Positions 33,483 through 60,720 of a stretch of DNA of 64,000 bases are shown in pieces. Below the pieces are notes generated by a model. That model saw only the letters and a list, made by a program, of their open reading frames with translations. It ran no database searches and was not told the origin of the DNA. The stretch spans positions 4,155,001 to 4,219,000 of the forward strand of contig NC_015510.1 in assembly GCF_000212735.1 (NCBI RefSeq), written 5' to 3'. The stretch comes from Haliscomenobacter hydrossis DSM 1100 (GTDB lineage Bacteria; Bacteroidota; Bacteroidia; Chitinophagales; Saprospiraceae). The position numbers were made by a program, and so were the translations under genes. Numbering within the stretch: position 1 is the first letter of the stretch; each line of letters begins with the position of its first letter.

Positions 33483-33572
33483 AATGACGAATAAAGAATG
33501 ACGATTGACGAATTTGTCAGTCACTGAGCGAAGCCTAAGTGCCGATAAATTCGTCATTCTTTATTCGTTATT
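33483..33572. repeat. TGACGAAT-word inverted repeat
   Basis: 22-bp arms with one mismatch (33483-33504 and 33551-33572). The loop holds CACTGAGCGAAG (33522-33533), also found in the loop of the element at 37157-37251. It lies between the convergent xylA and glpF. Confidence 0.8.
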
Positions 33573-33578
33573 TTTTAA

Positions 33579-34292
33579 TCAAAAGCCAAACCCATTCAAA
33601 ATGCCACCAGCAATCAACGCTGCTACAATCGGCCCAACGACTGGCACCCAGGCATAGCCCCAGTCGCTCCCTCCTTTTCCGGCAATGGGCAGAATGGTAT
33701 GTGCAATCCGGGGACCCAAATCCCGGGCGGGATTGATGGCATAACCCGTCGTGCCGCCTAAACTCAGGCCAATGGCCCAGACCAAAACACCGACCAACAG
33801 CGGTGCCATACCCGAACCAGCCTCCGCATACAAAGCAATTACACCAATGAGCAGCACCAGTGTACCAATGATTTCACTGATCAGGTTGGCTGGAGCGTTG
33901 GGAATAGCTGGACTCGTACTGAAAGCCGCCAGCTTAGCACCCTGATCATTGGTCGCTCCCCAATGTGGCAGGTGGTGTAGCCACACCAACGTAGCCCCCA
34001 ATATGGCCCCCAACAGCTGGGCACTGATGAATGGAAGGACGTTGCTGAAGTTGTTGTCTTTGACCGCCATGGCAATGGTGACCGCCGGATTGAGGTGGGC
34101 ACCAGGACTACCAAATTTTTGGGCGATAAAGATGCCCATGGTCACTGCAAAGCCCCAGCCCGCCGTTATGGCAATCAAACCGCCGTTGTTTCCTTTGGTT
34201 TTGCTGAGTAAAACGTTGGCAACTACACCATTGCCCAGCAGGATGAGCACCATAGTGCCAATGAGCTCACCCAAAAAAGGAGAAGTAATCAT
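33579..34292 (-). CDS. glpF: Glycerol facilitator / aquaglyceroporin (MIP family)
   Basis: 237 residues, six membrane segments. Both NPA boxes are intact: HLNPAVT and AINPARDLGPR. The Asp after the second NPAR favours glycerol-type over strict water channels. No glycerol kinase or regulator gene is nearby, so the substrate range is inferred. Confidence 0.92.
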   Translation of the reverse strand: MITSPFLGELIGTMVLILLGNGVVANVLLSKTKGNNGGLIAITAGWGFAVTMGIFIAQKFGSPGAHLNPAVTIAMAVKDNNFSNVLPFISAQLLGAILGATLVWLHHLPHWGATNDQGAKLAAFSTSPAIPNAPANLISEIIGTLVLLIGVIALYAEAGSGMAPLLVGVLVWAIGLSLGGTTGYAINPARDLGPRIAHTILPIAGKGGSDWGYAWVPVVGPIVAALIAGGILNGFGF

Positions 34293-34319
34293 TCGAGAAG
34301 GGTTTTAAGCGTGTGTTTA

Positions 34320-34327
34320 CAAATTTA
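34320..34327 (-). promoter_or_regulatory. -7 element TAAATTTG upstream of glpF
   Basis: Exact TAnnTTTG on the minus strand 27 nt before the glpF start. The -33 box is unclear. Confidence 0.4.
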
Positions 34328-34372
34328 CTTTGTGCTTGACTTGTACATCAATAAATAGACCAGTTTTTTTTA

Positions 34373-34398
34373 GACATGCGTAAGTTTTTATGCATGTC
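34373..34398. repeat. Short hairpin overlapping the rsmA stop
   Basis: GACATGC (34373-34379) and GCATGTC (34392-34398) pair around 12 nt. The right arm covers the first two bases of the rsmA stop codon (34397-34399). It has no T tract in the rsmA direction. Confidence 0.4.
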
Positions 34399-35179
34399 AA
34401 TGGTTGTTAAGGTTTTGCAGCTTACGGGTTATTTCAATGAAATCGTTTAAGGCCAGTTGTTCCGGACGTTGCTGATAAAAAACATCCTCCAATATTTCGA
34501 CACTTTCTGCGAACAAGGGCTTCAATGTATTGCGCAGCATCTTGCGCCGTTGGTTAAACGACGTTTTGACCACTTGCCGAAAAAGTGCTTCATCACAGCC
34601 AAGGTCTTGATTTTCTTTGCGCAGCAAACGAATTACTGCCGATTGTACCTTGGGTGGAGGTGAAAAACAACTTTTGTCAACATTGAACAAGGTTTTACCC
34701 TCATAATAAGCCTGAGTCAAAACACTGATCACCCCATAATCTTTGCCACCCGGTTTGGCAATGATCCGATCCGCCATTTCTTTTTGAAACATCCCGACCA
34801 TTTCCGGCACATAAGGCCGGAATTTGATCATGTGAAAAACAATTTGTGAAGAGATGTTGTAGGGGAAGTTGCCAATCAAGCCAAAGGCCTGGCCGTTAAA
34901 TACCGCCGCGAGGTCAACTTTAAGAAAATCCCCGGAAATAATGTTGTCCTGCAATTGTGGATAGTATTTTTGGAGGTAGTTGACCATGTCCACGTCTGCT
35001 TCAACCACTTTTAGTGAAGCGGTTTTTGCCAGTAAATATTTGGTCAGCATACCTTTTCCAGGACCTACTTCCAAAACAAGAGGAGCCAATTCGGTGTTGG
35101 TTGTTAAACTATTGGCGATGCGTTCGGCAATTTCTTCCCGGTTGAGAAAGTGCTGCCCAAAGGATTTTTTAGCTTTCAA
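34397..35179 (-). CDS. rsmA: 16S rRNA (adenine1518-N6/adenine1519-N6)-dimethyltransferase
   Basis: 260 residues. KKSFGQHFLN is the KsgA/RsmA start, VLEVGPGKGMLTKYL the SAM-binding motif and IGNFPYNISSQIVF the NLPY-type catalytic motif (here NFPY). It dimethylates two adjacent adenines near the 3' end of 16S rRNA. It is divergent from pdxA across 72 bp. Confidence 0.97.
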   Translation of the reverse strand: MKAKKSFGQHFLNREEIAERIANSLTTNTELAPLVLEVGPGKGMLTKYLLAKTASLKVVEADVDMVNYLQKYYPQLQDNIISGDFLKVDLAAVFNGQAFGLIGNFPYNISSQIVFHMIKFRPYVPEMVGMFQKEMADRIIAKPGGKDYGVISVLTQAYYEGKTLFNVDKSCFSPPPKVQSAVIRLLRKENQDLGCDEALFRQVVKTSFNQRRKMLRNTLKPLFAESVEILEDVFYQQRPEQLALNDFIEITRKLQNLNNH

Positions 35180-35211
35180 AACAATTTTCTGCTTTTTTTA
35201 CCATTACTTTG

Positions 35212-37156: not shown

Positions 37157-37251
37157 TGACGAATTTTTCGAATGACGAGTGACGAATATCCGGTCACTGA
37201 GCGAAGTCGAAGTGCCGGATATTCGTCACTCGTCATTCGAAAAATTCGTCA
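37157..37251. repeat. 37-bp perfect inverted repeat of TGACGA words
   Basis: Arms 37157-37193 and 37215-37251 match at all 37 positions. The 21-nt spacer starts TCACTGAGCGAAG and can itself pair CACT with AGTG. It lies between convergent lspA and the amidohydrolase gene, 4 bp from the latter's stop. Confidence 0.92.
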
Positions 37252-38601: not shown

Positions 38602-38721
38602 TTAAGTTGAAAAGTTTAGGGTTGAAGCGTTGAAAAGTGGGTTACAGCGTTTAAAGTCATCTTCCCAATCTTGCATTGCCGACAACTTTTCAACTCTAAA
38701 CTTTTCAACTTTTCAACTTAA
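38602..38721. repeat. AGTTGAAA-word inverted repeat covering the mqnC stop
   Basis: Outer arms TTAAGTTGAAAAGTT and its complement pair across 120 bp, with further GTTGAAAAGT pairs inside but small gaps. The right end includes TTA 38718-38720, the mqnC stop. Word content matches the elements at 11434-11527 and 54985-55064. Confidence 0.7.
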
Positions 38722-40631: not shown

Positions 40632-40632
40632 A

Positions 40633-40713
40633 AGTTGTACCTCGGCTTCGCTCGGTAACCCGCACCTCGGCTTCGCTCGGTGACCGGTTGCCGAGCGAAG
40701 CCGAGGCACAACT
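40633..40713. repeat. CCTCGGCTTCGCTCGG inverted and direct repeat in the rimP-nusA gap
   Basis: Outer arms AGTTGT/ACAACT (40633-40638, 40708-40713) enclose CTCGGCTTCGCTCGG paired with CCGAGCGAAGCCGAG; a second direct copy of the CTCGGCTTCGCTCGG word fills the loop. It starts 2 bp after the rimP stop. The GAGCGAAG core is shared with the elements at 33483 and 37157. Confidence 0.8.
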
Positions 40714-42149: not shown

Positions 42150-45100
42150 ATGTCAAGAGTTTTAGTCAAGATTGCTAGGGACTTGAATGTCGGTACAGCT
42201 ACTATTGTGGACCACCTCAATAGTAAGGGCTTTGATATTGAAAATAAGCCCAACGCCAAGATTACCGATCCGATGTATGATGAATTGCTAAAACAGTTCC
42301 AAAAGTCAATCGAAATCAAAGACGCCGCTAAAAATGTCAACATTGGTTCTGTCCGGCCCAAGCCGGAAGTAGCGGAGGTAGTAGTACCCACTAAAGAAAA
42401 GCCAACCAACGAAGAAGACAGCGTGCAAAAAAATGAAGCGGAAAGTGAAAGCTACCGCGTCAAACTGCAAAAGCCAACCGTGCTAGGCAAAATTGACCTG
42501 AGCGAACGCTTGAAGCAGCGCATTGAAAAAACGAGCAATGAATCCGCTAATAAGCGCAAGGAAGAAACCCCTGCGCCAATCGAGGAGAAGACCGCTTCCC
42601 GTGAAGATGTTGCTGCTCCAGTAGTTGAAGAACAGCGAACACCAGAGCCAGTCAAAGAAAAACCCCTCGAACCACAAGCGACCGTGATCAGTAGTACTCC
42701 TCCTAGCGAAACACCTGTTAGTACAACCACTACCGGAGATTCAAATGTGCCGCAAGTTGTAGAAGGTGACCAACAAGGCCCCCCAGAAAATAACTTTTTG
42801 CGTGCAGAAACGCCCGAATTACGTGGTCTCAAAATTTTAGGGAAAATTGATACCGACAAATTTGAGCGCCCTCGTAAAAAAGAAAAACCGAAGGAACAAC
42901 CTCGGGGCAAAGCAGGAGGCCAACCTGGTCAACAAAATCGCGGCAATGCGCCACAGCAAGGTCAGGGAACTGGTCAAGGAACAGGCAATGCTGGCGGAGG
43001 CAACCCCAATAGAGAGGGTCAAAATAGAGACAACCGAGGGGACAACCGGAATAGACCCAATAATGGTCAACCCAACCCCAACCAACCCAATACCGGGGAC
43101 AACCGCAACCGTCCCAATACCGGGGACAACCGCAATCGACCCAGTACGGGCCAACCCAATACGGGCGACAACCGCAACCGCCCCGCAACTGGCCAACCCA
43201 ATACCGGTGGTGAAGGACAAAATCGTCGGCCACAAACCGAAGGTGGAGCACCATTAAGTGGTTCTGCTGCCGAGGATGCTAAGAAAAAACGCAAACGCAA
43301 ACGTAAAAAAGTATCCCCTGGCCAGGAAGGCCAACAAGGTCAAGGCCCAGGCCAAGGTCAGGGCAATAACCAGGGTGGCGGCAACAACCAGAATCAGGGT
43401 AATAACCAGGGCAGCAACCAGGGTGGCGGAGGCCAAGGTGGTCAGCGCCCCAACTACCAGGGTGGTGGAGGAGGATACAACAATAACAACAACAGCAACA
43501 ATCAACGTCCACGGCCTCAAAGCCAAACCCAGGGCGGCGGCAACCGACCAGCTGGAGGACAAGAGAGTACTGAAGTTTCACAACGCCAGATAGAAGAAAA
43601 AATCAAAGCAACCATGGCGCGTCTTTCCGGTGGTGGAAAGAAAAAGCGTCAGAAATTGCAACGGGATAAACGCGATCGTTTCCGCGAACGTCAGGAAATT
43701 CTCGAACAAGAAGCCGAAGGCGGCAAACTGCAGGTAACCGAGTTCATCTCGGTGTCTGAATTGGCCAGCGTGATGAACGTAGCCGTTACCGAGGTAATCA
43801 CTACCTGTTTAAGCTTGGGTGTAATCGTATCCATCAACCAACGCCTCGATGCCGAAATCATTGAATTGGTAGCCGGTGAGTTTGGACACGAAGTTGAATT
43901 CATCTCGGTAGAAGAGCAAGTTGGTGAAGAAATTGAAGCACCAGATGCGCCAGAGAATCTGCGCGACCGGGCTCCAATTGTAACCGTGATGGGTCACGTA
44001 GACCACGGTAAAACTTCGCTGCTCGATTATATTCGTAAAGCTAAAGTAGTAGAAGGTGAAGCTGGTGGGATTACCCAGCACATCGGTGCCTACGAAGTTG
44101 AATTAGAAGAGGGTCGCAAAATCACTTTCCTCGATACACCGGGTCACGAAGCCTTTACGGCGATGCGCGCACGGGGTGCCAAGGTAACCGACATCGCGAT
44201 CATCATCATCGCTGCGGACGATAGCATCATGCCTCAAACCCGGGAAGCCATCAGTCACGCACAAGCGGCTGGGGTTCCGATGGTGTTTGCCATCAACAAG
44301 GTGGACAAAGCGGGTGCTCGTCCTGAAAAGATTAAAGAAGAATTGGCGGGGATGAATATATTGGTGGAAGACTGGGGAGGTAAATTCCAATCCCAGGACA
44401 TTTCAGCCAAAACCGGTTTAGGCATCCCTGAGCTGATGGAAAAAATTCTGCTTGAAGCAGAATTGCTGGAACTTAAAGCCAATCCAAATCGCAAGGCCAC
44501 GGGCACAGTGCTGGAAGCAACCTTGGACAAAGGCCGTGGCTACGTCACCAAAATGCTGATTCAAAATGGTAGCCTGAAAGTGGGTGACACTTTTGTAGCG
44601 GGCGAATTTTCGGGTAAAGTACGAGCCATGCTCAACGAGCGCGGCAAACGTTTGACTACTTCTGGCCCGGCCACTCCGGTCATGGTACTCGGTTTGAGCG
44701 GTGCTCCCCAAGCGGGAGACCTGTTTAAGGTATACGAGAATGACCAGGAAGCACGCCAAATTGCAACCAAACGTTCGCAAATTGCCCGTGAGCAAGCCAA
44801 CAGAGCCACCAAGCGGATTTCGCTCGACGAAATTGGACGCCGTTTGGCCTTGGGCAGCTTCAAGGAATTGAACCTGATTGTGAAAGGGGACGTGGATGGC
44901 TCGGTAGAAGCCTTGGCCGACTCCTTAATCAAATTGTCGATCGAATCTGTACAGGTGAACGTGATCCACAAAGCAGTGGGTCAGATCATCGAATCAGATA
45001 TTCTTTTGGCTTCGGCTTCGGATGCCATCATCATTGGCTTCCAGGTTCGCCCATCCTCTACGGCACGCAAACTTGCCGAGCGTGAAGGAGTAGAAGTAAA

Positions 45101-45494: not shown

Positions 45495-45518
45495 ACTTGC
45501 TTTGTTTGGATTCAAACC

Positions 45519-45567
45519 AATGGGTTGCTGCCTGGAATAATCGCCGGGCCGCAACCCATTTTTTTTG
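45519..45567 (+). terminator. Intrinsic terminator after infB
   Basis: AATGGGTTGC (45519-45528) pairs perfectly with GCAACCCATT (45551-45560) and eight T follow within the last arm and tail. Confidence 0.85.
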
Positions 45568-45593
45568 CTGAAAAACAAGGGATGGTTTTGGAC

Positions 45594-45629: not shown

Positions 45630-45654
45630 CGTAATCATAATCCCAAAAACTATT

Positions 45655-46374: not shown

Positions 46375-46390
46375 AAGCGTTTATTTTGGG

Positions 46391-46507
46391 GTTCGGGGGT
46401 TCGGGGGTTTGAGGGTTCGGGGTTCGAAGGTTCGAGGGTTGGAGCTTTAATCTCCTGAACCCTCGAACCCCCGAACCCCGAACCCTCAAACCCCCGAACC
46501 CCCGAAC
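46391..46507. repeat. GGTTCGGG-word inverted repeat with 50-bp arms
   Basis: Arms 46391-46440 and 46458-46507 match at 48 of 50 positions. The 17-nt loop can pair GGAG with CTCC and lengthen the stem. It lies between the kinase stop (46510) and the response regulator start (46374) within one likely transcript. Confidence 0.93.
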
Positions 46508-49810: not shown

Positions 49811-49901
49811 TTTTAGCGCAAGTTGGTTTTATGTTCAATTTAGTCTTATTTTGTAAGCACAAGCACTGTTTTTGTACCTACTCATTTCTATAACACTCAA
49901 G

Positions 49902-51683
49902 ATGGATTACCGTCGCCTTTTTGACCTCTTCGGATATCAGGAAGCTCGTTTCTCCAACGAGACTGCCCTCGCCTACAAACGACAAGGGCAGAGCATGGTG
50001 TTTTCTACCCGCGATTGCCAACACAAGATAAATCAAGTTAGCGCATTTTTGTTGAGAATGGGGTTGCGTCGGGGTGAACGGGTAGCGATCATGGCCAAAC
50101 ATGGTAGTCCTTTCTGGAATTTTTTGGATTTTGGCATGCAACAAATTGGGCTCATTGTGGTGCCGCTTCATGCTACTTCCGGCGTGGAAGAGCTGCGGTT
50201 TATTTTGCAAGATGCCGCCATTCGCGCTTGTTTTACGGATACGGAAGAGCTGTATGCCACCATTCATAACCTGCAAACCGAAAGTCCAGACCTGGAGTGG
50301 GTAGTTCCTTTTTATCCACTTGCTGGTGTAAATCCGTGTTTGTTGGATTTACTGGCGGAGCCATCAAGTGAAGAGCTGGAAACGATAAAAATCCTTCGGG
50401 AGAGTGTGGTCGAAAACGATTTGGCCACCATCATTTACACTTCCGGCACCACTGGGAGGCCCAAAGGAGTCATGCTTTCGCACCAAAACATCATCAGCAA
50501 CATTAAGTCTACTATTGCTCTCCTTCCGGTCAATTGTGACAAAAAGACGCTTAGTTTTTTGCCCTTGAGCCACATTTTTGAACGAATGGTGATTTATACT
50601 TATGTTGCAGTAGGTGCAAGTGTAACTTATGCCGAGGGGCAAGAGCAACTCTTGAGCAACTTGCGCGAAGTCCGTCCTCACTACATCACTGCGGTACCTT
50701 TGATTATTGAACGATTGGTTGAACAAATCATGGCCAATTCAAAGAAGGGGTCTTTTTTACGGAAAAGAATCATAAAATGGGCCATTGAATTGGGCAAAAA
50801 TTATTACGACAGCAAGCGGCAACCTCTGGCTTATTGGCTGCGTCTTAGCTTGGCGAGAATTTTGGTGTTTAACCGCTGGCGAAAGATGTTTGGTGGTCGT
50901 GTGGAGGGAATAGTAGTGGGTGCAGCGGCGTTAAACCCTGTATTGGGGCGCTTGTTTTCTGCGGCAGGGCTTAAAGTCAGAGAGGGGTATGGGCTGACCG
51001 AAACATCACCCGTCATCGCGTTCAATCGTTTTGAACCCGGTGGCTCACGGTTTGGTACAGTGGGTATGCCCATTCCGGGGGTAGAGGTACGCATCGTTAA
51101 TCCAGATGAAGAGGGTGCCGGAGAAGTGCAAGTTAAAGGCCCGAATGTCATGTTGGGTTACTACCAACAGCCCGAAGCCAGCCGTGAGGTCATGACCGAG
51201 GACGGGTGGTTTCGTACTGGTGATGTGGGCATGTGGGTCCACAAACGCTTTTTGAAACTCAAAGGGCGACAAGACGACATGTTCAAAACGGGTGCTGGCA
51301 AGTTTATTGCTCCAGAAGCGGTTGAAAAACAATTGCTTCACTCTGAATACATCAGTCAGTGCCTGGTTGCTGGAGCTAGTCGCCCGGCGCCCTATGCATT
51401 GATTGTACCCCGGTTTGATAAATTGGAAGAATGGTGTAAAGCTCAAAAAGTACACTGGACTGCGCCTCAGTTTATGGTGCTTAATCCACGAGTGCAGCGT
51501 TTTTTTGAACAAGAACTGGCGCGACTCAATCAAGATTTACCCCCCTACCAGCAAGTTCAACAGTTTTTGCTGCTGCATGAACCTTGGACAGAGCACAGTG
51601 GGGAGATGACCGCAACGATGAAATTACGCCGTAAACGGATTTTGGAAACCCACGTTAAAGCCATTAATGAACTTTATTCATAA
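49902..51683 (+). CDS. Long-chain acyl-CoA ligase (AMP-forming), copy 1
   Basis: 593 residues from ATG 49902 (MDYRRLFDLFG); the frame is open 10 codons earlier. The AMP-binding motif TIIYTSGTTGRPKGVMLSH, the fatty-acyl ligase motif GYGLTETSPVIAFN and DGWFRTGDVGMWV followed by LKLKGRQDDMFKTGAGKFI are all intact. It activates fatty acids to acyl-CoA through acyl-AMP. It is followed closely by the CotH-like gene and resembles the ligase at 52883. Confidence 0.92.
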   Translation: MDYRRLFDLFGYQEARFSNETALAYKRQGQSMVFSTRDCQHKINQVSAFLLRMGLRRGERVAIMAKHGSPFWNFLDFGMQQIGLIVVPLHATSGVEELRFILQDAAIRACFTDTEELYATIHNLQTESPDLEWVVPFYPLAGVNPCLLDLLAEPSSEELETIKILRESVVENDLATIIYTSGTTGRPKGVMLSHQNIISNIKSTIALLPVNCDKKTLSFLPLSHIFERMVIYTYVAVGASVTYAEGQEQLLSNLREVRPHYITAVPLIIERLVEQIMANSKKGSFLRKRIIKWAIELGKNYYDSKRQPLAYWLRLSLARILVFNRWRKMFGGRVEGIVVGAAALNPVLGRLFSAAGLKVREGYGLTETSPVIAFNRFEPGGSRFGTVGMPIPGVEVRIVNPDEEGAGEVQVKGPNVMLGYYQQPEASREVMTEDGWFRTGDVGMWVHKRFLKLKGRQDDMFKTGAGKFIAPEAVEKQLLHSEYISQCLVAGASRPAPYALIVPRFDKLEEWCKAQKVHWTAPQFMVLNPRVQRFFEQELARLNQDLPPYQQVQQFLLLHEPWTEHSGEMTATMKLRRKRILETHVKAINELYS

Positions 51684-51690
51684 CTTAATC

Positions 51691-52755
51691 ATGAGAAATC
51701 TACACCTTACAGCCCTTTGGTGCGGCTTATCAACCTTATTGCTTGCACCATTTTTGATATTTTCTCAAGCTACTACTACCCAGGTGGCAGCTACCAGTAC
51801 GGCAATCAGTTGGTTCGACCAACTTTTGCAAGAAGACAGCGTCGGCGCTTTGGAAATTCGCCTTGAGACGGATCTGAAATTATTGATGCGTGGCAAGACG
51901 GATGAAAAATACCAGGCCGCAGTGATCAAGTACAAAAATAAAGCCGGAGAAGAAAAAACCTACAATGCGGAGGTAAAAGCACGGGGAAAAACGCGCAAAG
52001 ACATATGTTTGCATCCACCGATTAAACTGAAAATCAAAAAAGCTGTCCTTACTGCAGAAGGATATTCGACACACAACGAGATGAAGATTGTGTGGGAATG
52101 CAAACCCTCCGGAGCTTTTGAGCAATTCATCTACAAAGAGTACCTGGCTTACCGTTTGTACAACTTGATTTCTCCGGCCAGCTTCCGGGCCAAGTTGGTA
52201 AAAATTAATTTGGTAGACTCCAACAATCCGGATAAAATCACCGAGAAAATTGGCTTTATCGTAGAAGATGAAGAACAAGTTGCCGAGCGTTTGGAAACCA
52301 CCATGATGGAAGAAAGACCCAAAGATACCAAACAATTTGCCCGTCAACATTTTTTGAACTTCGTGCTTTACGAATACATGATTGGCAATACAGACTGGGC
52401 CTTTGGCAACAGCCACAATGCCCGTTTCTTTGAGCTCAATACCACCAAAAAAGTGATCCCAGTGCCATACGATTTTGACTATTCGGGTTTGGTCAACGCA
52501 CCTTATGCGGTGCCTCATGAATCTATACCGATCGCAAATGTGCGGGAACGTTACTTTAAAGGAGGGACCGTCAACCAGCCAGAAGGCATGATTTTGCGCA
52601 AAAAATTCCTGGAGTCCAAAACCGCAGTACTTAATTTTATCAAAAACTTTTCACTTTTGGACAAGTTCAACCGAGAAGACGCCTTGTCGTACATCGAAGA
52701 TTTTTACAAGGAAATAGAGGATGAAAAACGCTTTCTCCGGGTGATTAATCCCTGA
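51691..52755 (+). CDS. Secreted CotH-like atypical kinase-related protein
   Basis: 354 residues from ATG 51691; an earlier in-frame ATG at 51667 overlaps the ligase gene. A signal peptide ends FLIFSQA. The core LYEYMIGNTDWAFGNSHNARFF and VPVPYDFDYSG resembles the catalytic and metal-binding segments of CotH protein kinases (GNxD...N and DxD). EVKARGKTRKDICLHPPIKLKI could be the N-lobe. Activity is unproven. It lies 7 bp after ligase 1 and about 127 bp before ligase 2. Confidence 0.65.
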   Translation: MRNLHLTALWCGLSTLLLAPFLIFSQATTTQVAATSTAISWFDQLLQEDSVGALEIRLETDLKLLMRGKTDEKYQAAVIKYKNKAGEEKTYNAEVKARGKTRKDICLHPPIKLKIKKAVLTAEGYSTHNEMKIVWECKPSGAFEQFIYKEYLAYRLYNLISPASFRAKLVKINLVDSNNPDKITEKIGFIVEDEEQVAERLETTMMEERPKDTKQFARQHFLNFVLYEYMIGNTDWAFGNSHNARFFELNTTKKVIPVPYDFDYSGLVNAPYAVPHESIPIANVRERYFKGGTVNQPEGMILRKKFLESKTAVLNFIKNFSLLDKFNREDALSYIEDFYKEIEDEKRFLRVINP

Positions 52756-52822
52756 TTTTTTAGTTGACTACGGGGTGCTGCCTGATAAATCGAAATAATT
52801 TAGCTGGTTCCAAACAATCTTT

Positions 52823-52830
52823 TAATTTTG
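52823..52830 (+). promoter_or_regulatory. -7 element TAATTTTG of acyl-CoA ligase copy 2
   Basis: Exact TAnnTTTG; TTTA at 52799-52802 with a 20-nt spacer is a one-mismatch -33 box. The start codon is 53 nt downstream. Confidence 0.5.
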
Positions 52831-52882
52831 GGTTTATATTAGAGGATAATTCTGCCAAACATCCGAATAAACCAACTTTTTT

Positions 52883-54706
52883 ATGGAGCCAACCAGATTA
52901 TGTGACCTGATTCACTATCAGGCAGCACAATTCCCCTTGGAGCGTGCTTTTGGACACCGCGTTGACGGGCAATGGAAATATTACAGCACCCAGGAAATTA
53001 TAGACCTGGGCAATAAAGTCAGCCGTGGTTTGCTAAAATTGGGCGTTAAAAAAGGCGATCGAATTGGGGTAGCAGTCACCCAAAACCGTACGGAATGGAC
53101 CATCCTTGATGTGGGTATTCAACAAATTGGAGCGATCAACGTTCCGGTATATCCAACCATTACCTCGGAGGATTATACGTACATTTTTAATGATTCTGAA
53201 ACTCGTTTCTGCTTTGTCGGCGGTGGTGATTTGTATGAAAAAGTGAAAAAAGCCCAAGCTGGGGTTCCTACCCTGCAAGAGGTATATTCATTTGACAAAA
53301 AAGAAGGCCAACCTTATTGGGAGAGCATTTTTTCAGACGAAGGCCAAGCCGATGTGGATGCACGAATGGCGTTGATCAAGCCTGAAGAACTGGCTACCAT
53401 CATTTATACCTCCGGTACAACGGGGGTGCCCAAGGGGGTGATGTTGTCCAACCACAACATCATCAGCAACATCATGGCCGGGCGCCATGCTTTTCCTTTT
53501 TCCACGGGAGATACCGCATTGAGTTTTCTGCCCATCTGTCACGTCTATGAGCGCGTGGTCATTTATCTCTACATGCTCAACGGAATTTCGGCAGTCTATA
53601 CGGGTACGGATAACCTGGGTGGCGAAAGTGGCGACCTCATGGCGGTTAAGCCCCACTTTTTCACGACCGTACCTCGCCTGCTGGAAAAAGTATACGAGCG
53701 CATTTACAACAAGGGTCTTGAGTTGACGGGTATCAAAAAGAAGCTGTTTTTTTGGGCCTTAAAACTTACTGAAGAATACCATTTTGAATACAAACCCACG
53801 GGTTGGAAGGCCATTCAGTGGAAAATTGCTGATAAACTGATTTTTAGCAAATGGCGTGCAGCCCTCGGTGGCCAGCTCAAGGGCATTACGACTGGTGCCG
53901 CTGCTTGCCCACGTAGAATAGCTCAGGTGTTTTCTGCCGCTGGTATCCCCATTCGTGAAGGCTATGGCCTGACCGAAACCTCGCCCGTACTCACCCTCAA
54001 TCTTTTTCAACCCAATGGCGCCATGTTGGGTACGGTTGGTCCAATCATCGAAAAAGTGGAATTGTACATTGACGAGTCGGATGGCATTTACCGCCCCGGT
54101 GAGGGGGAAATCCTCGCTTATGGCCCCAATGTCATGATGGGTTATTACAAAAAACCCGAAGCCACAGCCGCAGTCATGAAAACGATTAACGGCAAAACCT
54201 GGTTTTGTACGGGCGACGTAGGCAAATTGGTGGATGGCCCGGGTGGAAAAAAATACTTGCAAATCACCGACCGCAAAAAAGAATTGCTCAAAACCTCCGG
54301 TGGCAAGTACGTAGCACCCACCCCGATTGAAAGTAAATTCCGGGAAAATTTCCTGATCGAACAAATGATGGTCGTCGGGGAACAACGCAAATTTGTGTCC
54401 GCCCTGATTGTGCCTGCCGAGCCAGCTTTAAAAGACTGGTGCCAGGAGCATCAGGTTGAATGGTCTACCTTCGCCGAAATGATTCATCACCCCAAAGTGA
54501 TTGCCAAGTTTCAGGAAATAGTAGACGAGATGAATCCAAGCTTCAGCCACATTGACCAAATCAAGCAGTTCCGTTTGCTGGACAAAGTATGGGAACCCGT
54601 CAAGTCCGATGGCTCCGAAGCCGAACTGACGCCTACCATGAAACTAAAAAGAAGGGTGATTTTAGAGAAATACAGTGGCGTGATTGAAGAGATTTACGCA
54701 GAGTAG
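52883..54706 (+). CDS. Long-chain acyl-CoA ligase (AMP-forming), copy 2
   Basis: 607 residues. TIIYTSGTTGVPKGVMLSN, GYGLTETSPVLTLN, TWFCTGDVGKLVDG and QITDRKKELLKTSGGKYVAP mark the family, closer to typical FadD15-like ligases than copy 1. Both keep the catalytic lysine region. It has its own promoter, so expression may differ from copy 1. Confidence 0.93.
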   Translation: MEPTRLCDLIHYQAAQFPLERAFGHRVDGQWKYYSTQEIIDLGNKVSRGLLKLGVKKGDRIGVAVTQNRTEWTILDVGIQQIGAINVPVYPTITSEDYTYIFNDSETRFCFVGGGDLYEKVKKAQAGVPTLQEVYSFDKKEGQPYWESIFSDEGQADVDARMALIKPEELATIIYTSGTTGVPKGVMLSNHNIISNIMAGRHAFPFSTGDTALSFLPICHVYERVVIYLYMLNGISAVYTGTDNLGGESGDLMAVKPHFFTTVPRLLEKVYERIYNKGLELTGIKKKLFFWALKLTEEYHFEYKPTGWKAIQWKIADKLIFSKWRAALGGQLKGITTGAAACPRRIAQVFSAAGIPIREGYGLTETSPVLTLNLFQPNGAMLGTVGPIIEKVELYIDESDGIYRPGEGEILAYGPNVMMGYYKKPEATAAVMKTINGKTWFCTGDVGKLVDGPGGKKYLQITDRKKELLKTSGGKYVAPTPIESKFRENFLIEQMMVVGEQRKFVSALIVPAEPALKDWCQEHQVEWSTFAEMIHHPKVIAKFQEIVDEMNPSFSHIDQIKQFRLLDKVWEPVKSDGSEAELTPTMKLKRRVILEKYSGVIEEIYAE

Positions 54707-54710
54707 TTGA

Positions 54711-54802
54711 AAGCGAATAGCGAATAGCGAATAGCGAAAGCCAACTGAATGTAAACCTGTTGAGTTTTTCACTTTTCACTTTTCGCTATTCGCTATTCGC
54801 TT
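54711..54802. repeat. CGAATAGC-word inverted repeat
   Basis: Perfect 21-bp arms (54711-54731 and 54782-54802), built of repeated CGAATAG units. It starts 5 bp after the ligase stop and its right arm ends inside the stop codon (54801-54803) of the small membrane-protein gene. Confidence 0.85.
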
Positions 54803-54929
54803 ACTGCGGCGGCAGCAAATCACCATTGCGGTTGTACAGATAAACCAACAACGAAATAAACAAGATAAAAAAGATAAAGAAATACATTACACAGTATCCC
54901 TTTCGTCCAACGTTTTCTATTTCAGACAT
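54801..54929 (-). CDS. 42-residue single-pass membrane peptide
   Basis: Reading the minus strand from ATG 54927-54929 gives MSEIENVGRKGYCVMYFFIF, a hydrophobic segment (residues about 14-32) and a polar end NRNGDLLPPQ with TAA. The positive-to-hydrophobic order and clean stop suggest a real small inner-membrane protein. A near-consensus -7 box (CATCTTTG, minus strand, 54968-54975) lies about 39 nt upstream. No family recognised. Its stop codon overlaps the inverted repeat at 54711-54802. Confidence 0.6.
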   Translation of the reverse strand: MSEIENVGRKGYCVMYFFIFFILFISLLVYLYNRNGDLLPPQ

Positions 54930-54984
54930 TGTTTAGGCAGTTTTGAGTGAATGAAAACTTGCGCTTGCAAAGATGAGTAAAATA

Positions 54985-55064
54985 GTTGAAGAGTTGAAAA
55001 GTTGAAGAGTTGAAAGTTTTTAGACCTCACTTTTCAACTGTTCAATCCTTTAACTTTTCACCTG
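54985..55064. repeat. AGTTGAAG-word imperfect inverted repeat
   Basis: Left half is GTTGAAGAGTTGAAAAG words, right half the complementary TTTTCAACTGTTCAATC words, with several mismatches. It lies just upstream of the rpsA promoter. Words match the elements at 11434 and 38602. Confidence 0.55.
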
Positions 55065-55070
55065 ATTCCT

Positions 55071-55100
55071 TTTGATTCTCAATTCAAAATCCTACCTTTG
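55071..55100 (+). promoter_or_regulatory. Promoter of rpsA
   Basis: TTTG (55071-55074), 18-nt spacer, TACCTTTG (55093-55100), 48 nt before the ATG. Both boxes match the consensus exactly. Confidence 0.8.
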
Positions 55101-55148
55101 CGGCTCAATTTTTAATTCATAACCAAATCTCACCTTTCGTGAGAAGAA

Positions 55149-57494
55149 ATGCATTGTATGATAGACGAAAAAGACGACATCGAGCAACAAGAAGCACCAC
55201 TCGATGCCGAAGCGCAAGTTGAAGAAACTGCGCCAGAAACCAGCAACGAAATCACCGCGGCAGTAGAAGAAACTGAAGCAGAGGTAGAAGCCGTAGCTGA
55301 ACCAGTTGTGGAAGCTGCCGTTGAGGTAGTGGAAGAAACTGCGGATGTTGCTGACGAAGTAGCTGAGCCAGTTGCTGAAGCCGCCATTGAGGCAGTGGAA
55401 GAAACCGAGGCTGTTGCGGAAGAAGCAGCTGAAACTGTTGTTGATGCCGTGGAAGAAGTGGAGCTGGAAGAAGAAGCTGCTCCTGCTGAAGTGATCATCA
55501 TCAAAAACGTCGACCTGATTCCTGAAGTGCCCAGCGCTGGCGGTGACGATGACGACGAGGACGAATTGGACATCGAATTGCTGTTTGTCAGTGGCTTCGA
55601 TCCCAATACCGCACACGATGAATTTGACTGGAGCATCACCAACAAAGGTGGCGCCGTTTATTCTGCGGATACCACCAAAGAATACCTGACCCAGTACGAA
55701 TCTACCATGAACGCTGTGGTAGAAAGCGAAATCGTCAAAGGACGCGTAACCTCCGTAAATGGTGGCGACGTGGTTTTGGACATCAACTACAAGTCGGATG
55801 GTTTGGTACCGCTTTCTGAATTCCGCGACACACCGGACCTCCAGATTGGAGACCTGGTTGAAGTGTACGTAGAACAACAGGAAGACTTGCGGGGTCAATT
55901 GGTACTTTCTCGCCGTAAAGCTAAATTGCTGCGCGCCTGGGAAAGCATCGTGGATTCGTACGAAAATGGTACAGTGATCAAAGGTACGGTGATCAGCAAA
56001 ACCAAAGGTGGTCTGATTGTAGACTGCAGTGGTTTGGAGACCTTCTTGCCTGGTTCACAAATCGACATCAAGCCAATCATCGATTACGATTCATACGTTG
56101 GCAAAAACATGGAGTTCAAGGTGGTTAAGATCAACGAAACCATCAAAAACGCCGTGGTATCTCACAAGGCACTCATCGAAAGCGACCTCGCCGAGCAACG
56201 CGAAGCCATCATTGCCAGCCTCGAAAAAGGCCAGGTATTGGAAGGTATCGTCAAGAACATCACCGACTTTGGTGCGTTCCTCGACTTGGGCGGCGTAGAC
56301 GGTCTGCTCTACATCACCGATATCTCTTGGGGCCGCATCAGCCACCCCAGCGAAGTATTGTCGCTTAATCAGAAGATCAGCGTAGTAGTACTCGATTTCG
56401 ACGAGAACAAAAAACGTATCTCTCTGGGCTTGAAGCAATTGCAACCACATCCATGGGAAGTACTCGACAACACCATCTCCGAGAATTCTATCGTTAAAGG
56501 TAAAATTGTCAACATCGAAGATTACGGCGCATTCCTGGAAATTCAACCGGGCGTAGAAGGTTTGATCCACGTTTCTGAAGTAAGCTGGAGCAACCAACCG
56601 ATCAACGCACGCGAATTCTTCAAGTTGGGCCAGGAATACTCCGCAAAAGTAGTTACCGTTGACCGCGATGAGCGCAAGATGTCTCTCTCCCTCAAGCAGA
56701 TGGCGCAAGACCCTTGGAGCGAAATCGAAAACCAATTCCCACTCAACAGCCGCCACACGGGCGAGGTGAAAAACCTTACTCCTTATGGTGTGTTCATCGA
56801 GCTGGAAGAAGGTATCGGCGGCATGGTACACATCTCCGATTTGAGCTGGACCAAACGTTATGGTCACCCATCCGAGTTTACGAAGGTTGGTGAAAAAATT
56901 GACGTGGCAATCCTCGATATCGATAAAGACAACCGCAAACTGTCACTGGGCCACAAGCAATTGGAAGAAAACCCATGGGATACTTTCGAAAACGTATTCC
57001 CTGTAGGTTCTTACCACGAAGCTACCGTATTGCGTCGTGACGACCGCGGTGCCATCGTGCAATTGCCTTATGGTCTGGAAGCTTTCGCTCCGATCAAGCA
57101 CATCCGCAAAGAAGACAATAACCTCGCCGAAGTCGATGAAGTATTGACGGTGAAGGTGATTGAATTCAACCGCGATGACAAGCGCATCTTGGTTTCTCAC
57201 TTGCGTTACCTCGAAGACATCCGTCGCGAGGCCGATGAACAAGTGAAGAAAGTAAAAGATGACGAGCGCAAAGTAACCCGCGTTGCCGTGAAAAAGCAAC
57301 AGGATAGCATCGAACGTTCTACCCTTGGTGACCTGGAAGGACTAGCTGCGTTGAAAGAACAATTCGAACAGCAACAGCAGACCATCAAGGAAGTCAAAGA
57401 AGCGAAAGAAGCTAAGGACGCGAAAGAAGCTAAGGACGCGGAAGCTACCGAAGCCACTGAAGTTAACGACGTTACCGAAGACAAGGAAGATTAG
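55149..57494 (+). CDS. rpsA: 30S ribosomal protein S1 with acidic N-terminal and helical C-terminal extensions
   Basis: 781 residues against about 557 in E. coli. Residues 1-130 are an acidic Glu/Ala/Val repeat region (VEAVAEPVVEAAVEVVEE). Six S1 domains follow from about 190 to 690, the third to fifth with the best motifs (DFGAFLDLGGVDGLLYITDI, DYGAFLEIQPGVEGLIHVSE, PYGVFIELEEGIGGMVHISD). The tail has KEAKEAKDAKEAKDAEATEA. S1 helps recruit mRNA to the 30S subunit; with no Shine-Dalgarno use in this group its role may be larger. A terminator follows. Confidence 0.95.
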   Translation: MHCMIDEKDDIEQQEAPLDAEAQVEETAPETSNEITAAVEETEAEVEAVAEPVVEAAVEVVEETADVADEVAEPVAEAAIEAVEETEAVAEEAAETVVDAVEEVELEEEAAPAEVIIIKNVDLIPEVPSAGGDDDDEDELDIELLFVSGFDPNTAHDEFDWSITNKGGAVYSADTTKEYLTQYESTMNAVVESEIVKGRVTSVNGGDVVLDINYKSDGLVPLSEFRDTPDLQIGDLVEVYVEQQEDLRGQLVLSRRKAKLLRAWESIVDSYENGTVIKGTVISKTKGGLIVDCSGLETFLPGSQIDIKPIIDYDSYVGKNMEFKVVKINETIKNAVVSHKALIESDLAEQREAIIASLEKGQVLEGIVKNITDFGAFLDLGGVDGLLYITDISWGRISHPSEVLSLNQKISVVVLDFDENKKRISLGLKQLQPHPWEVLDNTISENSIVKGKIVNIEDYGAFLEIQPGVEGLIHVSEVSWSNQPINAREFFKLGQEYSAKVVTVDRDERKMSLSLKQMAQDPWSEIENQFPLNSRHTGEVKNLTPYGVFIELEEGIGGMVHISDLSWTKRYGHPSEFTKVGEKIDVAILDIDKDNRKLSLGHKQLEENPWDTFENVFPVGSYHEATVLRRDDRGAIVQLPYGLEAFAPIKHIRKEDNNLAEVDEVLTVKVIEFNRDDKRILVSHLRYLEDIRREADEQVKKVKDDERKVTRVAVKKQQDSIERSTLGDLEGLAALKEQFEQQQQTIKEVKEAKEAKDAKEAKDAEATEATEVNDVTEDKED

Positions 57495-57517
57495 GAATAA
57501 TCATTCCTGATGGAAAT

Positions 57518-57558
57518 AAAAAAAAGCCCTGCCCGGTGATCCGTGGTGGGGCTTTTTT
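57518..57558 (+). terminator. Intrinsic terminator after rpsA
   Basis: AAAAAAGCCC pairs with GGGGCTTTTTT (arms about 57518-57529 and 57547-57558), with six T. Confidence 0.75.
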
Positions 57559-57601
57559 GTTTCCAAAAAGTTAATCTCCAGCATCTAAACCGACGAACCT
57601 T

Positions 57602-57609
57602 TAGTTTTG
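57602..57609 (+). promoter_or_regulatory. -7 element TAGTTTTG abutting the GHMP kinase start
   Basis: Exact TAnnTTTG ending 6 nt before ATG 57616, so the transcript would start at or next to the start codon and be leaderless. The -33 box is unclear. Confidence 0.45.
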
Positions 57610-57615
57610 CAGCAT

Positions 57616-58512
57616 ATGACCTTTTCCAGCAAACTCCTCCTCTTCGGTGAACACACTGTCCTCCAAGGCTCTGCCGCACTCGCTTTGCCCCTACCTTTGT
57701 TTCAGGGGGAATGGGCTTGGGCGGAAGCAGAAAATGTGGCTTCCCTGCAACGCAACTTGCCTGCATGGTGTCAGTATCTGACCGAACAGCAAGCGGAAGG
57801 GAAGTTGGAAACAAAACTGGATTTGCCCCGCTTTACTGCGGATCTGAAGCTAGGGCTATACTTCCGCAGCAACATTCCAGATGGGTACGGAACGGGTAGC
57901 TCGGGAGCAGTTTGCGCGGCACTCTATGCCCGGTACGCCTTACCGCCCATTGACCGGGAGGACGCTGCCCGCTATCCGGAATTGAAACGTATCCTGGGGC
58001 AAATGGAAAGTTTTTTCCACGGTGCCAGTTCGGGCACTGACCCCTTGATCATTTACCTGGATCGCCCCGTTTTGTTGAGTGAAGGTGGAAAGATTGAGTC
58101 CATCTCGCTACCCGCCTGGCCGCAAGCCGCAAGTGGCTGGCAGTTTTTTTTGCTGGATACGGGCCAGAGTCGCAGTACCAGCCAATGGGTGAACCTGTTT
58201 TTGGAGCGCTGCAAACTCCCCGCTTATCAAGAACAAGTCAAAACCCAATTGATCCCGGTTACGGAGGAGGCGATTCGGTTGTTTCAACAGGCGCAATGGC
58301 CCGAATTGTATGCCAATTGGCAACAAATCAGCGCTTTGCAACAACAATTGCTGGAACCGATGATCCCCGCTGCGTTCAAAAAACTGTGGGAACAAGGACT
58401 CGAAGAAGGCCATTTTGCCCTCAAACTCTGCGGCGCGGGTGGCGGCGGCTTTTTGCTAGGCATGGGCAAAACTGGCTTTTTACCCCAAAATGCAATCGTT
58501 TTGAATGAATAA
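57616..58512 (+). CDS. GHMP kinase, mevalonate kinase-like
   Basis: 298 residues from ATG 57616; a TTG three codons earlier lies inside the promoter. Motif 1 is KLLLFGEHTVLQGSAALALP, motif 2 (ATP loop) PDGYGTGSSGAVCAALYARY, and motif 3 KLCGAGGGGFLLG. SFFHGASSGTDPLIIYLDRPV resembles mevalonate kinases. It would phosphorylate mevalonate if the host uses that isoprenoid route; no other pathway gene is near, so a different small-molecule kinase is possible. Confidence 0.75.
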   Translation: MTFSSKLLLFGEHTVLQGSAALALPLPLFQGEWAWAEAENVASLQRNLPAWCQYLTEQQAEGKLETKLDLPRFTADLKLGLYFRSNIPDGYGTGSSGAVCAALYARYALPPIDREDAARYPELKRILGQMESFFHGASSGTDPLIIYLDRPVLLSEGGKIESISLPAWPQAASGWQFFLLDTGQSRSTSQWVNLFLERCKLPAYQEQVKTQLIPVTEEAIRLFQQAQWPELYANWQQISALQQQLLEPMIPAAFKKLWEQGLEEGHFALKLCGAGGGGFLLGMGKTGFLPQNAIVLNE

Positions 58513-58513
58513 A

Positions 58514-58865
58514 CTCACATTACGCATTTTTCACCGCAGAGTGAAGGAGTACACGCGGAGTTCCGCGGAGTTTTAGTTTTAAGGAGTTTGCCACCTGCGG
58601 TGGCTGGAGTTCGGGCTCTAGGAAGATTTGCAGATTAAGTCAAGAATAATGGGACTTGAGGGTAACGAACCAACTTTTGGCAAAAGCGACCTCCGTTGCC
58701 TCTATGCACCGCAGGTGCCCCTAAAAAACTCCGCGGAACTCCGCGTGTACTCCTTTACTCTGCGGTGAAAAAAACTACGGTTAAGTTGAAGTCGCTGTGT
58801 ACAGCAGTAATACTCACTATTACTTGCACCAGATGAGGACTAAGAATAGGCCTGCGTAATGTGAG
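58514..58865. repeat. Nested 352-bp inverted-repeat element
   Basis: An outer perfect 13-bp pair (58514-58526, 58853-58865) flanks a second pair of about 50-bp arms (from 58527 and up to 58772) built of GCGGAGTT and CACCGCAGAG words with one mismatch and one small gap. CACCTGCGGTG-type hairpins lie near the inner ends. It fills most of the 416-bp gap between the GHMP kinase gene and the small secreted protein; no gene was found in it. Confidence 0.85.
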
Positions 58866-58928
58866 TGAATAATGAAAACGTGCATGATTTTTGTAATTTA
58901 CAACTCATAAACATACAAACGCTTTACA

Positions 58929-59312
58929 ATGAAAAAAACATCATTCATCCTTGGCTTGGCCCTCTTGGCAATCATCCCGATGTTCATGGCCCTAAGCCCC
59001 AAAGCAGAAAAACCCGCTGAAACCCAATGGCGCGTAGTCACCGTCATTGAATCTGTAGTACCCGGCAACCTGGGCCGCTCCAAAATTGCCACGATGGACA
59101 GCAACGGAACCGCGACCGAGGTGGAGATCAAAAACCTCTTCAGCCTCACCGGGGTTAACTTCAAAAACGTGCAGGACAACAACCGGGGTATCACCGATTT
59201 CCTGGCCAAAAATACCGCTGAAGGGTATGAATTGGTGGAGGTGATTCCCGGGAATTTTGGAGACAATAACTCGCAGGGGATTTTTATGACGCGGTTTATT
59301 TTTAAGAAGTAG
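58929..59312 (+). CDS. Small secreted protein, DUF4177-like pattern
   Basis: 127 residues. The N-terminus MKKTSFILGLALLAIIPMFM is a signal peptide or anchor. The mature part has WRVVTVIESVVPGN at the start and AEGYELVEVIPGN near the end, the spacing seen in DUF4177-like small domains. Assignment is weak. Function unknown. A hairpin follows at 59333. Confidence 0.6.
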   Translation: MKKTSFILGLALLAIIPMFMALSPKAEKPAETQWRVVTVIESVVPGNLGRSKIATMDSNGTATEVEIKNLFSLTGVNFKNVQDNNRGITDFLAKNTAEGYELVEVIPGNFGDNNSQGIFMTRFIFKK

Positions 59313-59332
59313 GTCGGAGATTAAACTTATCG

Positions 59333-59398
59333 ACAGGTTTTGGATAACGCCAGCAACTGTAGTGAAAGTTGGGGTCTCTGGCGTCGTTCAAAACCTGT
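59333..59398. repeat. Three-part hairpin upstream of the transporter gene
   Basis: ACAGGTTTTG/CAAAACCTGT (59333-59342, 59389-59398), ACGCCAG/CTGGCGT (59347-59353, 59378-59384) and CAACT/AGTTG (59354-59358, 59367-59371) nest in order. It ends 25 nt before the GTG start of the transporter gene and may act as a leader structure or terminator. Confidence 0.75.
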
Positions 59399-59423
59399 TG
59401 GTTACTAACGCAAAACACCAACC

Positions 59424-60605
59424 GTGCAAACCACCCTCTACTTCCGCCTTGCCCTTTTCCAGTTCCTCCAATTTTTCATTTGGGGCTCCTGGACGGTAAC
59501 CACTGGAACTTACCTTTTACAAACCCTGCACTTCAGTGGTCGCGAAGTCGGGCTGGTGTACGGCACTACCGCCATTGCCGCCATGGTTTCTCCCTTTTGG
59601 GCGGGTCGTTTGGCCGATCAGCACTTTCGTTTGGAGCGCATTTTGGCCGCCTTGCACTTTACGGGCGGTTTACTCATGTTTGCCCTCAGTACGGTGGATA
59701 CCTTTGCTTTTTTTTACCCGGTCATGTTGTTGTACGCCATTTGCTACATGCCCACTTTTGCGTTGTCTACGGCCATGACTTTTCACAACATCCCCGAGCC
59801 TGCGCGTGATTATCCGCGCTTGCGGGTATGGGGCACTTTGGGCTGGATTGCGACGGGCTTGTGTGTAGGGGGGCTGGATTTGGAAACCACGACCTTGCCC
59901 ATGCGCTTGTCGGCCACCGCGTCTATTTTTCAAAGCATTTATGTATTGAGCTTGCCGTCGACCCCTCCGCCCGGCAAAAAGGAAACCAACAGTTTATGGA
60001 TCACGGGCAAAGATTTGCTGCGCGACCGCAGTTTTTTGGTCTTGCTCATTGCCTTGACCTTGATTTGTATCCCCAACGCCTTTTATTACAGCTTTGTCAA
60101 TGCTTATTTGAAGGATCAGGGTTTTAAAAATGCCGCCGCCATGATGTCGATCGGGCAGGCCACCGAAATTGCTTTTGTCTTGCTGTTGCCTTATGCCCGC
60201 CGCTATTTTGGCCTCAAGCCGGTCATTTTAATGGGTGTTTCCGCCTGGGGCATTCGGTATTTGCTGCTTTCCTGGGGTGGAGTCGATCTGCCCATATTGG
60301 TTTGGATCGGTTTGGCCATGCACGGCTTGGCCTGGGCATTTACCGCTTTGGCCGGGCAGATTTACATCGATGAAAAAGTTCCGGTATCTTTGCGTAGCAC
60401 CGCGCAGGGCTTTATCGCTTTGATCATTTCGGGGGTTGGCGCGTTTTTCGGTTCTTTGATTGCTGGGGAAGTCGTAAATTGGCATACGGCGGGCACCAAA
60501 ATTTTGTGGCCCTATGTTTGGCTGGTACCGGGAGGGGTCGGGATATTTACGGCGCTGTTTTTTGCGTTATTGTTCCGTAGCCCCAAGCATGTGAAAAAGA
60601 ATTAA
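59424..60605 (+). CDS. NupG-like nucleoside:H+ symporter (MFS), GTG start
   Basis: 393 residues, twelve membrane segments. LALFQFLQFFIWGSWTVTTG at the N-terminus is the family hallmark. RVWGTLGWIATGL and STAQGFIALIISGVGAFFGS are further conserved stretches. The start is GTG 59424; no ATG occurs before the first helix. It probably takes up nucleosides with protons. Confidence 0.88.
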   Translation: MQTTLYFRLALFQFLQFFIWGSWTVTTGTYLLQTLHFSGREVGLVYGTTAIAAMVSPFWAGRLADQHFRLERILAALHFTGGLLMFALSTVDTFAFFYPVMLLYAICYMPTFALSTAMTFHNIPEPARDYPRLRVWGTLGWIATGLCVGGLDLETTTLPMRLSATASIFQSIYVLSLPSTPPPGKKETNSLWITGKDLLRDRSFLVLLIALTLICIPNAFYYSFVNAYLKDQGFKNAAAMMSIGQATEIAFVLLLPYARRYFGLKPVILMGVSAWGIRYLLLSWGGVDLPILVWIGLAMHGLAWAFTALAGQIYIDEKVPVSLRSTAQGFIALIISGVGAFFGSLIAGEVVNWHTAGTKILWPYVWLVPGGVGIFTALFFALLFRSPKHVKKN

Positions 60606-60646
60606 ACATTTAGCGCCTGCCTGCGCCGGACGGGGTGTAAAGGGAA

Positions 60647-60720
60647 TTTCACCACAGATTCCACAGATTTGCACAGATTTTTTAAAAAATCTGTGCAAAT
60701 CTGTGGAATCTGTGGTGAAA
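60647..60720. repeat. 74-bp perfect palindrome without spacer
   Basis: Positions 60647-60683 are exactly complementary to 60684-60720 with no loop. The arm contains CACAGATT three times (CACAGATTCCACAGATTTGC and again). It ends 12 bp before the ATG at 60733, so it lies in or just upstream of that gene's leader. Confidence 0.95.

Follow-up and report, generated by a model that had tools for sequence, protein, structure and literature searches.

Why does the chromosome of Haliscomenobacter hydrossis DSM 1100 carry, in many of its intergenic gaps, long inverted repeats whose arms consist of short tandem words? The question was raised by the window, which here means the whole stretch of 64,000 nucleotides that was analysed (G000:C1:4155001-4219000; G000 is the genome of this strain, with 8,771,651 bases in 4 contigs and a chromosome of 8,371,686). 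An earlier sequence-only reading had noted palindromes whose words vary between sites and had supposed a class of elements without a coding gene. We found that Haliscomenobacter has a dispersed class of word-built palindromes, whose vocabularies are skewed by species and whose members have been acquired, lost or swapped in orthologous gaps at 3' ends. The explanation that we favour, with moderate confidence, is that they are non-autonomous dispersed hairpin elements, lying mostly 3' of genes, in which template switching during replication copies one arm onto the other.

Abundance, vocabularies and turnover of the word palindromes

The abundance was assessed in 20 evenly spaced 20-kb stretches of the genome together with the window (464 kb), counting inverted repeats that scored 17 or more without gaps. 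The sample contained 94 of them, and one second-order Markov realisation of 464 kb, used as the chance control, contained none. A word family patterned in this study was present in 67, only a REP-like core or a repetitive extragenic palindrome (REP) in 9, and neither in 18. A pattern-free test of periodicity (arm period 6–11, self-match of at least 55%) was positive for 50 of the 94, compared with 8 after arm shuffling. Extrapolation to the chromosome gives ~1,700 such repeats, ~1,200 of them with word families. The AGTTGAAAAGTT pattern, allowing up to three mismatches, had 83 matches genome-wide versus 38 for its reversed control. The window does hold several words, as had been claimed, but most words form dispersed families and are not unique to a site; single-copy arms acting as ordinary terminators, which would have spoken against an element class, were not what we found. 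The idea that each site makes its words locally by copying its own flank was ruled out, the families being common to many sites.

Outside the genus, ~384 kb (20 stretches, from 20 genomes that belong to the family or the order of this strain) contained six repeats, none of which matched the word families, and one of which (in G027) looks word-built. Among 80 loci around one gene, mostly from Bacteroidota (1.16 Mb), 20 repeats were found, 10 of them in L049 and L050, contigs of the congeners G002 and G001. Word-built inverted repeats were also seen at L053 14772 (Chloracidobacterium sp. UBA7656) and L100 11320 (a metagenome-assembled genome of the Cyclobacteriaceae), and from these two the word-built form may be spread more widely than the genus. 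The longest word array observed is a one-sided GTTCG array of ~30 words (~250 nt) at ~960–1219 of L293 (G000:C1:3630000-3633000), with shorter opposite arrays beyond it.

Placement was counted in stretches of four congeners, with gene ends taken from simple open reading frame (ORF) calls. There were 42 elements in 86 convergent gaps, 91 in 367 co-directional gaps and 16 in 88 divergent gaps. In the co-directional gaps the elements lie a median of 11 nt from the upstream stop and 42 nt from the downstream start, and 68 of the 91 are nearer the stop. This placement is compatible with a role at the 3' end or with mere tolerance. By eye, the stop codon falls within the first word at a few sites.

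The vocabularies were compared using stretches of G001, G002 and G004 picked as orthologues of G000 loci. The counts were 94 repeats in 464 kb (G000), 29 in 103 kb (G001), 29 in 136 kb (G002) and 24 in 112 kb (G004), that is, 20–28 per 100 kb. A more distant congener, G003, showed no repeat of this score in 31 kb, yet it has four GTTGAA word-pair sites. A three-word GTTCG pattern had 916 overlapping matches in G000, 4 in G004, 1 in G002 and 0 in G001 (reversed control, 0), while the GTTCC pattern had 245 matches in G004, 18 in G002, 6 in G001 and 1 in G000 (control, 0). The GTTGAG and GTGAAAA families are present in all four genomes; CACGACG and CGCGGAGTT arrays were found, within the compared stretches, in G000 only, although GCGGAGTT-type matches occur in other parts of G001 and G004. 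A tree from 42 proteins gave (((G002,G004),G001),G000),G003, with an amino-acid identity of 96% between G002 and G004, 94% from either to G001, and 82% to G000.

A census was made of gaps with both neighbours orthologous, including palindromes that are not word-built, and each gap was classed as same, different, one only or neither. The counts in this order were 5, 2, 10 and 42 of 59 gaps for G002–G004; 4, 4, 11 and 33 of 52 for G002–G001; 5, 4, 6 and 31 of 46 for G004–G001; 1, 5, 14 and 21 of 41 for G000–G002; 2, 6, 11 and 17 of 36 for G000–G004; and 0, 2, 10 and 14 of 26 for G000–G001. Same and different were separated at an edit distance of 0.30, which put at least one pair (L038 18505, G000–G002) into the wrong class. 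Gaps that by eye are clearly word-built on both sides and yet different numbered 1 (G002–G004), 3 (G002–G001) and 1 (G004–G001). Same-gap presence was associated among G001, G002 and G004 (p from 3e-5 to 1e-3), and the association with G000 was weak or absent (p = 0.04, 0.12 and 0.58). The gaps with GTTCG in G000 correspond to gaps with GTTCC in G004 in 5 of 5 cases (table 30/1/0/5, p=1.6e-5, an optimistic value as three of the five gaps lie in one 20-kb stretch).

Single gaps illustrate these exchanges. In the gap after 54706, AAGCGAATAGCG is common to G000 and G001, TCAGC words stand in G002 and GTTCC in G004, and the right flank is conserved. Because G000 and G001 share one word and G002 and G004 each have another, this gap was probably rewritten while occupied. 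Two loop cores, A and B, resemble REPs and are found with more than one kind of arm. In the gap at 46374–46509, G000 has GTTCG words, whereas in G001 core B is enclosed by a CTGCGGCTTTGC palindrome, of which G002 seems to keep a remnant left by deletion; in G004, GTTCC arms flank a core-B-like loop in the opposite orientation. At L029 19426, a stop-CG-ATG joint is clean and empty in G001 and G002 and filled in G000 and G004. Inspection by eye showed no target duplications in the empty and filled pairs, in species that are 4–18% diverged in protein. The sequence-only reading had proposed the search for copies and the comparison of orthologous gaps, and both bore out its element class.

Two further palindromic features were observed in the congeners. 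At ~1078 of L221, G001 has a long nested palindromic insert with GGAGGACATGAATTGCC ends upstream of a start codon, which G002 and G004 lack. A GAGACGCACGGCCGTGCGTCTC palindrome follows the signal peptidase II orthologue (L160, L158, L159) in G001, and G002 and G004 have it with single changes.

Arm pairing and the case for copying at the DNA level

The two arms of an element mirror each other word by word. Arm identity in register averaged 0.942 versus 0.652 one word off, and the in-register value was the higher in 61 of 64 elements. When loci were fetched by one arm only, an opposite partner lay within 250 nt at 25/25 (GTTCG), 11/12 (GTTCC) and 10/10 (GTTGAA) loci, which overlap and represent ~17, 7 and 9 sites. 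All 101 intergenic two-armed sites from 12 families were in the usual polarity of their family (six two-armed sites inside called ORFs were left out). A proposed rule that the 5' arm is rich in purines held for 122 of 160 decided elements, with 9 even, but it was dropped, since a few families drive the bias. In G004 the GTTCC family has perfect arms in 12 of 28 elements, and no two of the 23 longer ones have the same left arm. On average, 15–16% of the other sites were as close as, or closer than, an element's own second arm. The own arm therefore beats most other sites but is the very closest at a minority of sites, which means that the arms are linked and that the lexicon is narrow. Folded as single-stranded DNA, eight window elements were far more stable than dinucleotide shuffles (z from −5.2 to −14.9).

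If selection acted on RNA pairing, G-U should exceed A-C among the mismatches read in the sense direction. The co-directional gaps showed no such excess (59 G-U, 74 A-C and 85 other mismatches; p=0.22 for G-U versus A-C). Paired changes were followed in seven alignments of orthologous same-word palindromes with 270 pairs (eight were tried, and one stretch was palindrome-free). There were 12 changes in the left arm, 11 in the right and 5 two-sided, all Watson-Crick, where ~0.6 two-sided changes were expected; the five represent three events, two of which were seen in two comparisons. In 22 loop comparisons the orientation was clearly inverted in 5, direct in 3 and undecided in 14, and four sites had alignable loops. 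At L162 3808 the loop is inverted over 31/31 nt between G002 and G004, at L221 1775 it is inverted in G001 relative to G002 and G004, and at L171 4968, which is not word-built, it is not inverted.

Template switching of the polymerase between inverted repeats has been reported to leave arm homogenisation and spacer inversion as its marks, with spacers of 2–5 bp (in the available part of PMC8604942), and according to the accessible text of PMC8794818 RNA hairpins arise and are maintained through it. Both marks were seen here between relatives, and three of the four alignable sites were inverted, one of them weakly. Hairpin-templated copying between arms, one of the explanations first offered for these repeats, has thus gained ground from the mirrored word order, the missing G-U excess and the loop inversions. 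Arm copying at the DNA level is supported by these data, not proven.

Several observations weigh against this interpretation. In-register identity is partly built in, as the elements were detected by arm symmetry. The CACAGATT loci had an opposite partner in just 1 of 4 cases (a poor pattern), and one-armed arrays occupy 29 intergenic sites beside the 101 two-armed ones. The own second arm was the closest of all at 10 of 23 (GTTCC) and 6 of 20 (GTTCG) sites only. One-sided changes (13) exceed two-sided ones (5), so arm copying is incomplete. The loop inversion at 46374 is weak (score 40 vs 25, with different arms), and the inverted loops, few in number and taken from draft assemblies, measure 31–46 nt, against the published spacers of 2–5 bp. 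A search among Y1 transposases, the enzymes covered genome-wide, found no mobilising enzyme. Finally, the GCGGAGTT element of the window looks like an ordinary miniature inverted-repeat transposable element (MITE), judging by matches in G001 and G004 that include its loop.

The process that we propose begins from what the gaps display: expanded word families differ by species, and orthologous gaps gain, lose or swap their elements. The replicating strand would then fold into a hairpin in which one arm templates the other, so that a change in one arm can pass to its partner and the loop is occasionally flipped; this step is supported, not proven. Slippage of the 7–10-nt words may lengthen the arms. 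New sites might be reached by a single-stranded DNA route, by a transposase acting in trans, or by ectopic template switching, and 3' ends would be favoured since insertions are tolerated there. If this is true, the genus offers a natural system for watching DNA-level arm copying at hundreds of sites per genome, in which the cause of lasting hairpin pairing, RNA selection or template switching, becomes testable with congeners and growth experiments. The replacement of 3' intergenic repeats between species that are 94–96% identical in protein is also a warning against calling such palindromes conserved terminators.

The sites of the window

All the inverted-repeat sites named in the sequence-only reading exist, one of them at shifted coordinates (58514 is really 58527–58772), and the one near 54985 is weaker. 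Two TGACGAAT-word palindromes are built around core B. The first (33483..33572; arms 95% over 22 nt) lies in a convergent gap, and the orthologous gap has GTTGAG words and core A in G002 and G004. The second (37157..37251) lies between the signal peptidase II gene and an amidohydrolase gene and pairs at 37/37 positions. At the 3' end of the amidohydrolase gene, G001 has GTTGAG words with core A, and G002 and G004 have GTGAAAAG with core A2, although the gene on the other side is a different one there.

There are two AGTTGAAA-word palindromes: that at 11433..11528, whose word family is repeated genome-wide, is in a divergent gap (arms 92% over 37), and that at 38602..38721 follows a CofH/MqnC-type gene (arms 78% over 37, or 90% over a shifted 29). 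At the latter site, G001 and G004 have GTTGAG with core A, and G002 has CACAAAG words farther away. A CTCGGCTTCG palindrome (40633..40713; arms 93% over 28), a doubled relative of core B, lies between rimP and nusA. The spacing of these genes is 97 nt in G000, with the palindrome, versus a palindrome-free 17 nt in G002 and G004.

The GGTTCGGG-word palindrome at 46391..46507 has 50-nt arms with 96% identity and occupies a gap between a histidine kinase gene and a response regulator gene. The CGAATAGC-word palindrome at 54711..54802 starts 4 nt past a stop codon (arms 93% over 29), and a weaker AGTTGAA-word palindrome follows at 54986..55045 (arms 78–80%), its arrays reaching ~54981–55063. The GCGGAGTT-family element at 58527..58772 consists of two 48-nt arms around a 150-nt loop; matches elsewhere in G001 and G004 are ~220–360 nt long, and the orthologous gap in G001 and G002 holds one-armed CTTTTCAC arrays instead. 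The spacer-free CACAGATT-word palindrome at 60647..60720 pairs at 37/37 positions; its orthologous gap has CTTAGATG words in G002 and a single CTTAAGG arm in G001 and G004. None of these palindromes is assigned to a strand.

Other features were observed in passing. A dispersed repeat of ~121 bp with AAAAATAAGTGTTCATT inverted ends lies at 48168–48288; dozens of copies occur in G001, G002 and G004, mostly 85–91% identical, a conservation exceeding that of the word palindromes. At 7859–8061 of L022, a ~200 bp repeat holding a CCCCGAAGGGG REP is 88–94% identical at the 10 places listed in G001 and G004. Two neighbouring genes of the window (22306–25721) each encode MORN repeats and a caspase-like (Peptidase_C14) domain.

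Alternative explanations and known systems

Elements of similar scale, extragenic position, hairpin form and species-specific expansion are known as REP doublets (REPINs). The REP-associated tyrosine (RAYT, Y1) transposases of the genome could move the palindromes in trans, and the words would then be a local version of the REP stem. The word palindromes are indeed repetitive, extragenic, palindromic and of high copy, cores A and B, REP-like in appearance, are combined with more than one kind of arm, and the genome has seven Y1 (PF01797) genes, of which that at L045 has a short core-B-like match ~640 nt away and that at L046 has two CTACCGC 7-mers within 300 nt. No transposase or reverse-transcriptase family was found by Pfam among the 47 window ORFs (11 without any family), as had been stated for transposases. 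A TnpA-REP-like gene had been suggested as a check; such genes exist, but 0 of the 7 has a word array within 700 nt, and at least three of them carry other REPs. At the one congener Y1 locus inspected (G002 L324, 2.3 kb), no word palindrome was present. The GTAG/CGTC tag stands at the foot of only 7 of 94 elements. Y1 genes occur in 46 of 60 genomes searched, the genus included, and their numbers do not track how dense the palindromes are (G001 has 3 genes with 28 palindromes per 100 kb; G002, 13 and 21; G003, 9 and 0 in 31 kb). We filed the elements as palindromic interspersed repeats and not as REPINs, since the tags are few and RAYT linkage was not found, and mobilisation by a REP-type Y1 enzyme looks unlikely. 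The three RAYT-like Y1 genes at L044, L045 and L046 are flanked by their own REPs (CGACTTCGGAGAAGTCG; CCAAGAGAAACCCCGAAGGGG).

Ordinary MITEs would also give dispersed palindromes, as the terminal inverted repeats of insertion sequences that have been lost or went unseen, with words that arose in their ends by replication slippage. The polarity, fixed per family in 101/101 sites, is what one ancestral palindrome each would leave; the loop-containing GCGGAGTT matches, the clean empty sites and the stretches shared by eye among some CACGACG loops point the same way. On the other side, the loops of the GTTCG and GTTCC families are by eye mostly unrelated despite like arms, and no constant flanking letters occur in 28 GTTCC elements. 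The computed loop similarity is less clear (0.41–0.61 within families, GTTCG 0.55, versus 0.47, sd 0.06, between families). A few GTTCC loops share CGGCGT, from which fast loop decay following transposition of whole elements may be suspected. Taken together, this origin has a small chance of being the right one for the word palindromes.

A transposase-free scheme of self-writing hairpins seems improbable to us. It holds that, through ectopic template switching, a stalled strand copies the word arrays of another hairpin, so that words travel loop-free, the genome homogenises its vocabulary and another family can overwrite a palindrome where it stands, in some cases with the core kept.

Strong transcript-end structures had also been suggested, as bidirectional terminators or 3'-end stabilisers selected in RNA with freely drifting word content, and the part of the suggestion that stood is positional: most elements per gap in convergent gaps, and proximity to stops in co-directional gaps. 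T-tracts (at least 5 T of 8) past the stem were not enriched (23/175 sense versus 13/91 antisense sides), unlike what intrinsic terminators, hairpins followed by a sense T-tract, would show. An Rfam scan of the window gave 0 matches, and a consensus scan for promoters and terminators at 44500–61500 was uninformative (29 terminator-like hits versus 22.8, sd 4.0, in shuffles). With the G-U excess also lacking, such repeats few in 20 genomes outside the genus, and strong terminators disfavoured because insertions stand in tight joints such as stop-CG-ATG and rimP-nusA, the latter within rimP-nusA-infB, this explanation is unlikely.

Intergenic tandem words of ~7 nt are known from the STRR repeats of cyanobacteria, which are one-directional. 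No earlier description of word-built palindromes was found in a literature search with incomplete journal coverage, and the genus is not named in the available main text of a survey of bacterial inverted repeats (PMC10434271). The following comparisons likewise refer to the available portions of the cited papers. REPINs (PMC3116915) resemble the word palindromes as non-autonomous, extragenic, high-copy, hairpin-forming inverted pairs with compensatory arm changes. Their arms are REPs found beside a RAYT gene, whereas the arms here are tandem 7–10-nt words of many families, RAYT linkage was not found, GTAG/CGTC tags are few, and the loops are poorly conserved and sometimes inverted. Tagged REPs (PMC3733652) are likewise palindromic, abundant and extragenic, and the cores here are REP-like; unlike those REPs of 20–40 bp, our elements are mostly longer and 87 of 94 miss the tag at the foot. 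Heptamer direct repeats, such as TAACTGA, of Beggiatoaceae, cyanobacteria and a few Bacteroidetes (PMC4679880) share the intergenic ~7-nt tandem words. They are one-directional (of 170 sets, the main genome has a single inverted repeat) and lie mostly just before start codons, whereas the word palindromes pair opposite arms and lie mostly past stop codons. The template-switched inverted repeats of PMC8604942 and PMC8794818 are like the word palindromes in arm homogenisation, paired changes and spacer inversion; they were described in yeast genes and in RNA genes, whereas the word palindromes form a dispersed class with species vocabularies.

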